Assembly (NCBI GenBank): GCA_023150915.1 | Contig: JAKLKA010000003.1 | Span: 62,001-126,000, forward strand | DNA: 64,000 nucleotides | Source: Polyangiaceae bacterium | GTDB taxonomy: Bacteria; Myxococcota_A; Polyangia; Polyangiales; Polyangiaceae | Direction: 5' to 3' | Part shown: piece by piece, positions 10,800-15,517 of the stretch | How positions within the stretch are numbered: the stretch's first letter is position 1 | Layout of the letters: every line of letters starts with the position of its first letter | Made by a program: the position numbers and the translations under genes | Notes under the pieces: model-generated | Databases searched by the model: none | What the model was told of the DNA's origin: nothing | Seen by the model: only the letters and a program-made list of their open reading frames with translations

Positions 10800-11528
10800 A
10801 TGCGCATCGTCAGCTCGCTGTTCCTCGTAGTCCTGGCTCTGTCGTCTGCCTGCAAACCCGGGCCTGGGAGCTCGTGCGACAAGGGCGAGGCGCGCTGCGT
10901 CGACAAGAAGAGTCAGCTGGTCTGCCAGAAGGGCAGCTACATCCAGGCGCCCTGCAAAGGTCCGCGCGGTTGCGGACTCAGCCCCAGCGGGGTGTCCTGC
11001 GACATCAGCGGCAACCAGGCCGGTGACGCTTGTTCCACCGACGAAGAGGGCGCGTCGGCGTGCAACGACCCCAAGACCAAGATCGTGTGCACCGGCGGAA
11101 AGTTCGTCGCCACGACCTGCCGGGGCCCCAAGGGCTGTGAAACCCAGGAGGGGCGTCCGCTGTGCGACGTCTCGGTGGCCGAGCCTGGAGACGCCTGTCG
11201 CGACGCCGACAAGACCAAGGCGTGCAGCGTCGACGGCAAACAGTACCTGGCGTGCAAAGACGGCAAGATGACGATGGAGTTCCAGTGCCTGGGCCCAGGC
11301 GGCTGCAAGTCGGAAGGGGGCAAGTTGGGCTGCGACATGTCGATGGCACGCGACAAAGACCCGTGCACCGCCGAGATGGAGGGCAAGCACGCCTGCAACG
11401 CCGACAAGAGCAGCATCGTGGTGTGCAAGGGCGGGAAGTTCGTGATCGACGAGGAGTGCAAGAGCGGGGCAACGTGCAACGCCGAAGGCACCATCAAGTG
11501 CGAGAAGCCCGAGAAGAAGAAGGGGTGA
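10800..11528 (+). CDS. lipoprotein made of four six-cysteine repeats
   Basis: This 242-aa protein has a signal peptide and lipobox (LALSSAC, Cys18). The mature part consists of four tandem repeats of about 45-50 residues starting at Cys26, Cys78 and then at CRDADK and CTAEME. Each has six Cys with near-constant spacing, roughly C-x6-9-C-x8/9-C-x9/10-C-x5-C-x7/8-C, and a common VCxGGKF core with a GPxGC turn. Such spacing predicts three disulfides per repeat in an oxidising compartment. It ends in a Lys-rich tail (CEKPEKKKG). The family has no name that I know. TAGACT (10782-10787) lies 12 nt before the ATG, with no Shine-Dalgarno. It is convergent with another Cys-rich protein gene. Confidence 0.7.
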   Translation: MRIVSSLFLVVLALSSACKPGPGSSCDKGEARCVDKKSQLVCQKGSYIQAPCKGPRGCGLSPSGVSCDISGNQAGDACSTDEEGASACNDPKTKIVCTGGKFVATTCRGPKGCETQEGRPLCDVSVAEPGDACRDADKTKACSVDGKQYLACKDGKMTMEFQCLGPGGCKSEGGKLGCDMSMARDKDPCTAEMEGKHACNADKSSIVVCKGGKFVIDEECKSGATCNAEGTIKCEKPEKKKG

Positions 11529-11593: not shown

Positions 11594-12490
11594 TCAGCTG
11601 CGGCGGCGGCGACCCAGTGCCCAGGCTGCGAGCAGGCCGAACGCACCGAACGCGAACGCGGCTCCGCCGGCGCGCGGCCCGGGGGCGGTGGCGCAGCTGG
11701 CTTCGGCCTCGCCCTCGGCTTCGGCTTCGCACTTGCCGTTCTTGCAGCTGGCGGTCGCGCTGCCGCTGGCGCTGGCGTTGATCTGTGCCCGCCACTGGCT
11801 CAGTGCGTCCAGGCAGGCCTGCGCGTTGCCGTTGTTGTCGACGTACTGGCCGTCGCACTTCACCGCGCCCTCGGGGCTCTCGCACTTCGCCTTGCATCCG
11901 CCTTGAAGGTTCGTCTCGCAGGTCGCCTGGAGCTTGCCCTGGCAATCCACCTGGCAGTTGATGTTGGACTTCGCCTGGCACTGACCCTTGCAGCTGGCCT
12001 CGCACTTGGTCTTGCAGTCCGGGAATTCGCCCGTGCAGCTGCCCTTGCACTCGCCCTGGCAGGTCGCCTTGCACGAGCCCTGGCACTTGCTCTTGCACTC
12101 CGAATCAGTCCCGCACTTGCTCTCGCAGCTGCCGGCACAGTCGGCGTCGCAGCCGGCGGTGCAGTTTGCGGCGCAGTCGAACTTGACCTCGTCGCCGGTG
12201 CACTTGGTTTCGCAGCCCTTGACGTCACACGAGCCGGTGCAGTCCACGCTGGCGCTGCCCGAGCACTCGCCCTTGCAGCTCGCGTAGCCTTCGGCCTGGC
12301 AAGCCGCCTCGAACTTCAACTCCGTGCACTGTACGTCACAGCCGCCCTTGGCCATGGCTTCGCACGTGCCGCTGGCTTCGACGTGGATGTCCCCGCAGGC
12401 CTCGAGCCCGGCGTGGGCGGTGGAAGGAACGAGCATGGGCACCGCGAAGGCGGCCGCGCCGATCAGGAAGGGTGCGATGAGTTTGTGCAT
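11594..12490 (-). CDS. Cys-rich secreted protein with MYXO-CTERM-like anchor
   Basis: This 298-aa protein has a signal peptide (LIGAAAFAVPMLVPSTAHA) and about 37 cysteines in the mature part. The core (roughly residues 70-205) is a run of C-x2/3-C steps such as CKGEC, CTGSC, CDADCAGSCESKC and CQGSCKATCQGECKGSC, suggesting a disulfide-stitched rod. A low-complexity Ser/Ala/Glu segment precedes SCATAPGPRAGG, a hydrophobic helix and GRRRRS. This is the Cys-helix-Arg layout of MYXO-CTERM surface-sorting tails. AAGGAGAG precedes the ATG. Structural or envelope function is inferred from composition. Confidence 0.7.
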   Translation of the reverse strand: MHKLIAPFLIGAAAFAVPMLVPSTAHAGLEACGDIHVEASGTCEAMAKGGCDVQCTELKFEAACQAEGYASCKGECSGSASVDCTGSCDVKGCETKCTGDEVKFDCAANCTAGCDADCAGSCESKCGTDSECKSKCQGSCKATCQGECKGSCTGEFPDCKTKCEASCKGQCQAKSNINCQVDCQGKLQATCETNLQGGCKAKCESPEGAVKCDGQYVDNNGNAQACLDALSQWRAQINASASGSATASCKNGKCEAEAEGEAEASCATAPGPRAGGAAFAFGAFGLLAAWALGRRRRS

Positions 12491-12613: not shown

Positions 12614-13714
12614 TCACGGTGGGCCAAGCCCGGGTAGGTCCGCGTCGGCCATGGAGGTTTCCGCGTCCGTGGGACGGTCGGCGAGCGCTCCCCATTCAGG
12701 CCTCCCACCCGCGCCTACACGACTTCCCGGGGCGTCGGCCGGATCCCACGACAGGACGTAGCCGGCCTGCCGGAGCCTCTCCGCCAGCGGCGGAAGGATC
12801 TGGTAGGTCGCCTCGGCGTGGATGTGAAACAGCACCACCGCATCCGGTCGTGCCTGCCCGAGCGTCGTGGCGAGCACGTCTTCCGCGGGCCCACCTTCCC
12901 AATCGCGGCTGTCGACGTCCCACAGGTAGACCTCGTAGCCCAACGTCTTGGCGATGCGCTCGACCCGAGCATCGACCCCCATCAACGGAGGGCGGAAGAG
13001 CTTGCACTCGCCGTCGCCTGCGCCGCGCGCAATCTCGTCGGTGATGCGCGCGTCGGTCATCCACGGTGCCGTCAGGTTCACGTGGCTGAAGGTGTGATTG
13101 CACACGCGGTGCCCCTCGTCGCGGGCGCGCGCCACCCAGTCGGGGCGCGTCTTGGCCCAACGCCCCGAAGGGAAGAACAGCGCGCGGATGCGCAGCTCTT
13201 TCAAGCGATCGAGCAGCCGGTCGGCCTGTCGCCGATCGTTCGGCCCATCGTCGAAGCTCAGAACGAGCCGGGCGCCCTCGCCGGCGGCGGGGGCCAGGGG
13301 CATCGGCACGCGCGCACGGAACGTCCACTCGACGGGCTCGCCCCCCGGCGGGTGGAGTCGCACGCGTTGCGGCCGCCCCTGACGCCAGCGCTTGGGTGTG
13401 AAAGACCACGTCGCCCCGTCGACCCAATGACCGTCGCCGGCAACGTCGGGCTCGAGCTCGGCCACCTTCCAGCGCTGAGCGCTGGGAATGTCCCCCGCGA
13501 AGCGGACGACCAGCGGCGCGTCGAGAGCGACCCGCTCGCCCACGGGCGCAACCTCGATCACCCGTGGCGGCGCTGGCCGAGGCGGCGGCGCCGCGGCACG
13601 CGGGGCATCCGGCAGCGGCGCGGGAAGCGCCCCGGGTAACAGCTCGGGTCGCGCGCCCTCTTGCGGCAACGCCGCGGCCACGAGGACCAACAGCAGCACT
13701 AGAACCCGTCGCAC
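12614..13714 (-). CDS. exported polysaccharide deacetylase (NodB domain)
   Basis: This 366-aa protein starts at GTG 13714. A signal peptide (VLVLLLVLVAAALP) is followed by a Pro/Ala linker and a small beta domain. A NodB homology domain starts near residue 150. The motifs are LSFDDGPN (metal Asp and catalytic Asp), HTFSH (metal His pair), LFRPPLMG, DVDSRDW and LFHIHA (catalytic His region). The family removes N- or O-acetyl groups from peptidoglycan, chitin-like or capsular sugars with a metal ion, and this one would act in the periplasm or outside. TACTCT on the minus strand ends 8 nt before the GTG. The C-terminal 40 residues are low-complexity. Confidence 0.82.
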   Translation of the reverse strand: MRRVLVLLLVLVAAALPQEGARPELLPGALPAPLPDAPRAAAPPPRPAPPRVIEVAPVGERVALDAPLVVRFAGDIPSAQRWKVAELEPDVAGDGHWVDGATWSFTPKRWRQGRPQRVRLHPPGGEPVEWTFRARVPMPLAPAAGEGARLVLSFDDGPNDRRQADRLLDRLKELRIRALFFPSGRWAKTRPDWVARARDEGHRVCNHTFSHVNLTAPWMTDARITDEIARGAGDGECKLFRPPLMGVDARVERIAKTLGYEVYLWDVDSRDWEGGPAEDVLATTLGQARPDAVVLFHIHAEATYQILPPLAERLRQAGYVLSWDPADAPGSRVGAGGRPEWGALADRPTDAETSMADADLPGLGPP

Positions 13715-13745: not shown

Positions 13746-14888
13746 ATGCGCCACGGCTCGATCTTGCTCGTCGCCCTGGCACTCGGCTGCGAACGGCGGG
13801 CCCCGCCCAGCGCCGATCCGCCGGCAGCGACCGTGGTGGTGCCGAGCTCGCCCGCCGCGGAACCAGCTCCTGGGCCGCCGCTCGACGCTTCGGTGCCGGG
13901 GCCCTCGACGAGCACGTCGGCGCGCCCACGCCCGGCACCCGAGCGCCCCCCCGCCGCGCCGAGCGCGCTGCTCGGCGGGCTGCCCCGGCCAGCGGGTGCG
14001 TCGCACGCCGGCTTCGCCGGGCCGGTCGATCCGAGCAAAGACGCCACGTGGCTCGCACGCCTGGCCAGCGCACCGATCAGCGAGGTCACGCGCAACCCGG
14101 GGGGCGCGACCATCACGCTGCGTGTCCGCTTCTCGGACGGCAGCCGGGCCGTGTTCAAGCCCGAGCAGAAGCACTCGGCCTCGAACTTCCGCGGTGAGAT
14201 CGCTGCCTTCCACCTCGACCGCATCGTCGGCTTCGCGCGCACAGCCGCGGTGGCGGGGCGCACCATTGGCTACCCCCACTTGCTCGAGCACCTCGAGGCT
14301 TCCGAAGCCGACCCGAAGTTCATCGAGCGCGTGCGCGAAGAGGTACCCGCACGCGACGGCCGTGTCGCGGGCGCGATGATCGCGTGGCACGCCGGTCGGC
14401 TGGTGAGCGCCGAGCCGCCCAAGGGTTGGACCGACGGGCTGCGCTCGAAAGAGCCGCCGAGCGAGCCCCTCGTGAAGCGTCTTCCCGAATGGAGTGACCT
14501 GGTGGTGTTCGACTTCCTGATCGACAACACCGATCGCTGGTCCGGAGGAAACGTCCTGTCGCTGGGCGGCGGCGCGCTGATCTTTCTCGACAACGCCTCG
14601 TCGTTCGCCCCCTGGCGCGCCAGCCGCGGCGAAACCACGATCGCTCGCCTGTCACCGATCTGCCGGTTCCGCCGCGCCACCGTCACCGCGCTGCGCGCGC
14701 TGGGGCCCGAGGCCGCGGCCAGCGCGCGGCTGGGGGCGCGCCTGGCGAGCACGCTTTCTGCCGACCCCCTGGCGCCCGTGCTCAGCCCGGGGCAAGTGGC
14801 CGCCGTCGACGTGCGCGTGGAACGACTGCTCGATCACGTCAAGCGCTGCGAAGCCGAGCTGGGAGAAGAGCTGGCGCTCTCACTGTGA
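13746..14888 (+). CDS. lipoprotein FAM20C-like (secretory-pathway-kinase-fold) protein
   Basis: This 380-aa protein starts at ATG 13746. It has a lipobox LALGC (Cys15), a Pro/Ala linker to about residue 95 and then a FAM20-type kinase fold. Visible signatures are RAVFKPEQK (Lys138, the ATP-contacting Lys), RGEIAAFHLDRIVGF (Glu151), VFDFLIDNTDRW (Asp263, catalytic Asp position), a following Asn269, and IFLDNASSF (Asp282, in place of the DFG Asp). The string EIAAFHLDRI and the FDFLxxNxDR motif closely match what I recall of animal FAM20C. The C-terminal ICRFRRAT also parallels it. It probably phosphorylates proteins or glycans outside the cytoplasm. It is convergent with and overlaps the next gene's stop by 9 nt. 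Confidence 0.75.
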   Translation: MRHGSILLVALALGCERRAPPSADPPAATVVVPSSPAAEPAPGPPLDASVPGPSTSTSARPRPAPERPPAAPSALLGGLPRPAGASHAGFAGPVDPSKDATWLARLASAPISEVTRNPGGATITLRVRFSDGSRAVFKPEQKHSASNFRGEIAAFHLDRIVGFARTAAVAGRTIGYPHLLEHLEASEADPKFIERVREEVPARDGRVAGAMIAWHAGRLVSAEPPKGWTDGLRSKEPPSEPLVKRLPEWSDLVVFDFLIDNTDRWSGGNVLSLGGGALIFLDNASSFAPWRASRGETTIARLSPICRFRRATVTALRALGPEAAASARLGARLASTLSADPLAPVLSPGQVAAVDVRVERLLDHVKRCEAELGEELALSL

Positions 14889-15431
14889 GCCGCCCTCGAG
14901 CAGCTGGATGCGCCGCCGTGCGGCATCGAGCTCGCTCGCGAGCTCGGACCGCCGCTTCTCGCTGCGCTCGAGCATGCGCTTGGTCTCTTCGGCGCGGTTC
15001 CGCTCCACAGCCACGAGCTCGTCGTAGGCCCGCTGCACGCGCAGCGTCTCGGGGCGCAACTTGCCGAAGTAGAGCCACAACGACCCGGCAACGCACAGCA
15101 CGGCCACCACCATGCCCAGCACCGCGATCAGGCTCCCGCGTTGGCCGCGGCTCTCGAGCTGACGCATGCGGCGCTCGTGCGCGTGCTGCAGCGCGAGCAG
15201 CTCGACCTCGGCCCGAGCCGCGCTCTCGGCCCGAGCCGACTCGGTGGCTGCCCGCCGCCGGATCTCCTCTTCTTTGCGTTGCTGAGCAGCCACGGCCTCG
15301 ATCTCGCGCTCGGCGTGCGCTCTTGCCTCCCGACGTGCGGCCGCAGCCTCGGCGGCAAGACGGTGGGCTCGCAGCTCACGCTCGATGCGCTCGCGGTCCG
15401 CGGCCGACGACGAACGCAGCGAAAACAGCAT
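14880..15431 (-). CDS. single-span membrane protein flanked by coiled coils
   Basis: This is a 183-aa protein from ATG 15431 (MLFSLRSSS); a longer frame to 15497 looks non-coding. Residues 8-95 are a highly charged Ala/Glu/Arg coiled coil. A hydrophobic helix follows (SLIAVLGMVVAVLCVAGSLWLYF, around 103-125) and then a second coiled coil (AYDELVAVERNRAEETKRML). A cytoplasmic and an external coiled coil linked by one span suggests a scaffolding or envelope-spanning role. No family is recognised. Its stop overlaps the 3' end of the FAM20C-like gene in convergent orientation. Confidence 0.6.
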   Translation of the reverse strand: MLFSLRSSSAADRERIERELRAHRLAAEAAAARREARAHAEREIEAVAAQQRKEEEIRRRAATESARAESAARAEVELLALQHAHERRMRQLESRGQRGSLIAVLGMVVAVLCVAGSLWLYFGKLRPETLRVQRAYDELVAVERNRAEETKRMLERSEKRRSELASELDAARRRIQLLEGGSQ

Positions 15432-15517
15432 TGAATCGCCCCGGCGCGCGGCCATCCCCGATGAGACAACCGAGCAGGCCTGGCCTTGGGCGAGCACCGA
15501 CGAGTATCTTCGCCCCC

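Follow-up and report, generated by a model that had tools for sequence, protein, structure and literature searches.

A probably exported FAM20-family kinase-like protein encoded in a Polyangiaceae genome

Results

Locus and gene products

We analysed a stretch of 64,000 nucleotides (the window) from the Polyangiaceae bacterium assembly GCA_023150915.1 (contig JAKLKA010000003.1, positions 62,001 to 126,000, forward strand), in which the gene for a kinase-like protein lies head-to-head with a gene for a polysaccharide deacetylase. The two genes and the parts of the kinase-like protein are as follows.

12614..13714, minus strand: NodB-type polysaccharide deacetylase, exported, head-to-head with the kinase-like gene (PF01522, 76.1 bits)
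13746..14888, plus strand, stop included: FAM20-family kinase-like protein of 380 amino acids, probably exported (open frame, Pfam, phmmer)
13746..13790, plus strand: predicted signal peptide through the presumed lipidated Cys15, with the imperfect lipobox ALGC (equivalent Cys throughout subgroup I)
13791..14021, plus strand: Pro/Ala/Ser-rich linker, residues 16-92, poorly conserved (translation)
14022..14885, plus strand: FAM20-type kinase domain, residues 93-380 (alignment A1, AlphaFold2 model, FAM20 structures)

A longer reading frame starts at 13488, and its upstream part overlaps the divergent neighbouring gene; the start at 13746 yields the signal peptide and is conserved at a locus of the same genus (L083). 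Homologous frames are open in genomes of the same genus, and the window's own genome holds one copy of the FAM20-like gene. The linker varies in both length and sequence among the relatives. On the minus strand, 14880-15497 encodes a coiled-coil protein that probably spans the membrane once; its gene and that of the kinase overlap tail-to-tail over 9 nt, and the protein is conserved in three further genomes (G001, G002 and G022).

The bacterial relatives separate on sequence into two subgroups. Subgroup I, which includes the window protein, carries the motif DN[TG]DR[WY]SGGN, whereas subgroup II reads N-x-DRW, with a loop two residues longer and mostly GGR[ST]. The preliminary description of this DNA had relied on the lipobox to place the protein outside the cytoplasm. 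Export is indeed supported by a hydrophobic N-terminal stretch in 51 of 55 relatives and by the Cys that ends this stretch in all 11 subgroup I proteins, including those that read WAGC (L005) and LASC (L009), so that entry into the secretory route is indicated at the level of sequence. The lipobox of the window protein is nevertheless imperfect, as it reads A-L-G-C, with Ala at -3, for which the consensus is Leu, Val or Ile; the relatives have the Cys at the same place in lipoboxes that are better or equally loose. The window protein is thus probably exported and lipid-anchored.

Sequence homology to FAM20

We then compared the protein with known families. The Pfam model PF06702 (Fam20C) matched it with 59.1 bits (E 6.6e-16; curated cut-off 26.8), while the FAM198 model stayed under its own cut-off; NCBIfam offered no fitting FAM20-type model, its one match being to a hypothetical model at a score well under the cut-off. 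When all PDB chains were searched with phmmer at E values up to 1, only FAM20A, FAM20B and FAM20C chains were returned (E 3e-16 to 4e-9), in which the N-lobe and the C-lobe were matched separately. Furthermore, we built a profile from an alignment of 29 bacterial domains with 33-86% identity to the window protein (alignment A1). Against the PDB, this profile retrieved human FAM20C (4e-41), zebrafish FAM20C (2e-37), FAM20A (6e-34), hydra Fam20 (5e-33) and C. elegans Fam20 (3e-30), with the next match at 0.047 and no non-FAM20 match below 0.01. CotH gave no match in Pfam at E 1 or in either of the PDB sequence searches (phmmer, A1 profile). The likeness to animal FAM20 contexts, to which the preliminary description had pointed, therefore proved to be real, in view of the Pfam score, the FAM20-only phmmer result and the five residues invariant among the 29 domains.

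Predicted fold

An AlphaFold2 model based on A1 (pLDDT 93.5, pTM 0.92) was compared with the PDB. The 28 best Foldseek matches were all FAM20 chains, followed by PI4KII at 1.4e-5. In VIA-align, the model scored highest against hydra Fam20 with bound sugar (Z 28.8; 2.4 A, 271 residues), with Z values of 27.1-28.8 across all FAM20 entries, 16.1 for PI4KII, and lower values for CtkA, actin-fragmin kinase and HipA. CotH was absent from the matches listed in the fold comparison, which excludes nothing. The structure comparison on the predicted model thus agrees with the FAM20-type kinase fold proposed earlier from the letters (Z 27-29 to every FAM20, next fold Z 16), and membership in the FAM20 family by common descent and fold is well supported.

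Since PI4KII is the second-best fold, with CtkA and HipA next, we considered a lipid or small-molecule kinase whose function would be nearer to PI4KII, HipA or CtkA than to FAM20. However, the FAM20 structures score 11-13 Z units over PI4KII, and the Pfam scan lists no such family, with Fam20C above its cut-off, which makes this assignment very improbable. Within the FAM20 family, the Z values for FAM20A, FAM20B and FAM20C lie within less than 2 units of each other, and the fold alone therefore picks no substrate type.

Active site

The five candidate catalytic residues are located exactly where the preliminary description had put them, and each is invariant in 29/29 sequences of A1.

14157..14159, plus strand: K138, ATP-phosphate lysine (hydra K133), invariant in A1 and in the animal rows covering the position
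14196..14198, plus strand: E151, canonical helix-C glutamate (ceFam20 E218), invariant and aligned to the animal EIAAFHLDR
14532..14534, plus strand: D263, catalytic base (hydra D299), invariant, in animals too
14550..14552, plus strand: N269, probable metal-binding Asn, invariant in bacteria and absent from animal FAM20
14589..14591, plus strand: D282, metal-binding Asp of the DN(A/G) motif, invariant, in animals too

The Lys, helix-C Glu, catalytic Asp and metal Asp that characterize the family thus correspond to K138, E151, D263 and D282, aligned to the animal residues. An Asn near the position of N269 is usual in other kinases. The context of N269, which lies in GGN after DRW, had been described as closely like that of FAM20C, but it has no animal counterpart, as animals read DRHHYE or DRHHFE there. 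Similarly, Asp-Asn-Ala had been taken as a departure from the animal Asn-Gly, whereas human FAM20A and hydra Fam20 likewise read DNA; the motif is DNG in human FAM20C and DHG in the C. elegans protein.

Animal FAM20 proteins have a family-specific second acidic residue (ceFam20 E213, hydra D152; Gln in the pseudokinase FAM20A), which pairs with Lys in active members and is important for FAM20C activity (PMC5865150). At this site, the window protein has Ser146 and the other A1 rows are also non-acidic, so activity cannot be assumed. In hydra Fam20, the Gal-Xyl pocket includes Thr114, Gln115, His301 and Lys321 (PMC5865150). His301 corresponds to Trp265 and Lys321 to Ser285 in the window protein, while the counterparts of Thr114 and Gln115, judged from the spacing in FAM20C, are probably Ala121 and Thr122. 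With Trp265 and Ser285 replacing pocket residues, Gal-Xyl is probably not the substrate. The active site looks canonically competent, yet unlike the known FAM20B or FAM20C site.

The missing acidic residue bears on the main rival of a phosphotransferase function, namely a pseudokinase that keeps the FAM20 fold and perhaps binds a nucleotide or sugar, transfers no phosphate, and has a binding or regulatory role as a lipoprotein, similar to the role of FAM20A towards FAM20C. The residue missing in FAM20A is also missing here, and ATP is generally not expected outside the cytoplasm. Against this, the invariance of the five catalytic residues down to 33% identity would be unusual for a dead enzyme, and the canonical K138-E151 pair is retained, as is the Asn that animal FAM20 lacks. 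On balance, we consider a pseudokinase unlikely.

Comparison with known FAM20 proteins and CotH

The closest known system is the FAM20B xylosylkinase hydra Fam20 (PDB 5xom/5xoo), the top structural match, tied with FAM20C within 1 Z unit. The two proteins share the Lys, helix-C Glu, catalytic Asp, metal Asp and DNA motif, and the Cys341-Cys400 position is kept in subgroup I; the window protein differs in being bacterial and lipoprotein-like, in the presence of N269, in the exchanges of His301 to Trp, Lys321 to Ser and D152 to Ser, and in the absence of three of the four disulfides. The FAM20C Golgi casein kinase (human 5yh3, C. elegans 4kqb) is alike in fold (Z 27) and catalytic residues and gives the best profile score (4e-41), but the window protein has no acidic residue at the place of ceFam20 E213 and lacks the animal insert of ~13 residues between Lys and helix C. 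The FAM20A pseudokinase (5wrr) has in common the fold (Z 27), the non-acidic E213 place and the DNA motif; however, this place is Gln in FAM20A and Ser here, and FAM20A is the vertebrate partner of FAM20C. CotH, the Bacillus spore-coat kinase, is also bacterial and has been described as a distant FAM20C relative (PMC7821199, PMC12189002), but its reported features include the absence of a DFG-type metal motif and an unusual mode of ATP binding (PMC12189002).

The window protein is therefore none of FAM20A, FAM20B or FAM20C, since a search for their distinguishing features revealed neither the second acidic residue nor the FAM20B sugar contacts, and three of the four disulfides are absent. The designation FAM20C-like in the preliminary description captured the fold and the catalytic residues, as seen from the profiles, the structure prediction and the conservation, but it is too narrow for a protein that lies outside these three types, is devoid of the second acidic residue, and has its best structural match in hydra Fam20.

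Bacterial subgroups and animal FAM20

Cys341 and Cys400 form a disulfide in hydra Fam20 (PMC5865150), and this is the only one of the four conserved FAM20B/C disulfides with counterparts in the window protein, as follows.

14661..14663, plus strand: C306, at the position of hydra Fam20 Cys341 (alignment)
14847..14849, plus strand: C368, at the position of hydra Fam20 Cys400, the disulfide partner of Cys341 (alignment)

In each of the 11 subgroup I sequences, the domain contains exactly two cysteines, 55-62 residues apart, at these sites, and no subgroup II sequence has such a pair. From the alignment, this pair would fit an oxidising location. Subgroup II, for its part, has a stretch GA[LF]IxW[LI]PE similar to GALILWLPE of hydra Fam20.

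A profile of five animal sequences gave, among the matches listed, 77-119 bits for subgroup I (four) and 47-56 bits for subgroup II (three). In addition, 11 sites are common to animals and subgroup I only, compared with three for animals and subgroup II only. By these scores and shared sites, subgroup I is the bacterial group nearest to animal FAM20 in terms of similarity. We also constructed trees with distant acidobacterial and verrucomicrobial kinases as the outgroup. In one outgroup-rooted tree, animals and subgroup I were joined at 98/100, but this branch dropped to 31/68 once the two longest rows were removed, and topology tests rejected none of the alternatives, with p values of 0.33 for subgroup I as a single group, 0.34 for animals joined to subgroup II and 0.47 for a grouping of all bacteria. 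We thus claim no direction of descent.

Gene neighbourhood

The deacetylase gene and the start of the kinase gene are separated by a gap of 31 nt, and a promoter scan found nothing. Among the 11 subgroup I genomes in which the upstream DNA can be read, the head-to-head pair is present in eight (G000, G001, G002, G022, G029, G034, G037 and G309) and absent from the other three (G039, G057 and the isolate SJ398). Since flanking genes are also common to several of these genomes and the pair lies inside this shared syntenic block, descent alone could explain the pairing. In G001, of the same genus, the deacetylase is split over two frames (L082:8633-10214), because the gene is disrupted or because of an error in sequencing. 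Near the pair, the window further encodes two exported Cys-rich proteins, 11594-12490 (minus strand) and 10800-11528 (plus strand), which are conserved in several genomes and belong to no convincing known family; 10800-11528 matches PF09227 'Bubble' at 25.7 bits versus 23.

Such a NodB-type deacetylase is not found nearby at the subgroup II loci. There (L053:6907-9333 and equivalents in L040-L078), genes for an agmatine deiminase-like protein (PF04371) and N-carbamoylputrescine amidase (TIGR03381) and then thiE usually come after the kinase gene, in this order and on its strand, and a link with polyamine synthesis is possible.

Discussion

Proposed function

Building on the established FAM20 homology, predicted fold, catalytic residues and broad conservation in the class, we propose, with a probability of about 0.6, that the window protein is an exported, probably lipid-anchored phosphotransferase of a bacterial FAM20 branch, acting on an envelope glycan or protein. 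The protein would bind a nucleotide and a metal (Mn2+ or Mg2+) between its lobes; E151 would hold K138, D263 would act as the base, D282 and N269 would hold the metal, and the phosphate would be moved onto a molecule outside the cytoplasm. This molecule may be a cell-envelope glycan, with an envelope protein as the alternative. The glycan is slightly more likely, because the ancestral type in animals is considered to be FAM20B, which phosphorylates a glycan, and because the head-to-head neighbour is a NodB polysaccharide deacetylase. The main weakness of the phosphotransferase reading is that ATP is not expected outside the cytoplasm, where we know of no source of it.

A variant of this explanation is a FAM20C-like kinase for Ser/Thr of exported proteins in the envelope or secreted, instead of a glycan kinase. 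The fold and the ATP-site residues are common to FAM20C about as much as to FAM20B, with near-tied Z values, and the A1 profile ranks human FAM20C at the top; however, hydra Fam20, which is a glycan kinase of the FAM20B type, gives the top, though tied, structural match, and the conserved neighbour is a polysaccharide deacetylase, neither of which is decisive. We regard this variant as possible but less likely than not.

Distribution and origin

FAM20 has been treated as an animal family that begins with sponge FAM20B (PMC5865150, PMC7948968) and has been named metazoan-specific (PMC9758233). In the open-access literature, we found no paper on direct bacterial members, and only the distant CotH was mentioned. 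Automatic annotation probably labels some bacterial members already, as Pfam's own model recognises them. With this model, the family was detected in 34 of 97 near relatives and in 27 of 282 genomes of the phylum, and in none of 14 well-known control genomes. Of 317 genomes sampled from the class, 217 gave a match to the bacterial profile, as did, at E 1e-10, 30 of 112 genomes of the phylum; the weakest matches to this profile may be neighbouring kinase families. Scanning 84,980 species with patterns derived from the FAM20-like family itself, by which distant members can be missed, yielded 50 loci, 47 of them in bins titled Myxococcota, Deltaproteobacteria or unnamed bacteria; no relative was found among viral contigs (IMG/VR). 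This spread over the class, the profile E value, the same gene with the same neighbours in same-genus genomes, and a GC3 of 0.85 for the reading frame already refute both a fortuitous resemblance and contamination by an animal gene; we found no supporting point for either and regard this explanation as practically negligible.

More speculatively, animal FAM20 might derive from an exported bacterial glycan kinase like the present one, or both might go back to an early common ancestor. Subgroup I would then be the closest relative of animal FAM20 alive today, and many members of the class would use ATP to phosphorylate envelope glycans outside the cytoplasm; we find this scenario rather doubtful. 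A large bacterial branch would shift the origin of the FAM20 family and would supply outgroups that reveal ancestral features. It would also raise the question of whether ATP-dependent phosphorylation outside the cytoplasm is possible in Gram-negative bacteria, and, if so, on what and with what ATP. The bacterial versions, without the disulfide-rich inserts, should be easier to produce and study.

The remaining three loci of the pattern scan were weak, belonged to Acidobacteriota and Verrucomicrobiota, and look more like PI3/PI4 or HipA-type kinases. Two acidobacterial loci (L079:5650-6684 and L080:5830-6663) encode exported kinase-like proteins with the motifs EIAAYHLDR and NIDRNQGN, which score under the cut-offs for PI3_PI4_kinase, HipA_2 and FAM198 and possibly represent a further exported kinase family. 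Finally, some genomes of the order (G064 and others of family f6) contain many profile matches, with as many as 12 in G064, which suggests an expansion of paralogues, and some pairs of these matches are halves of one protein.
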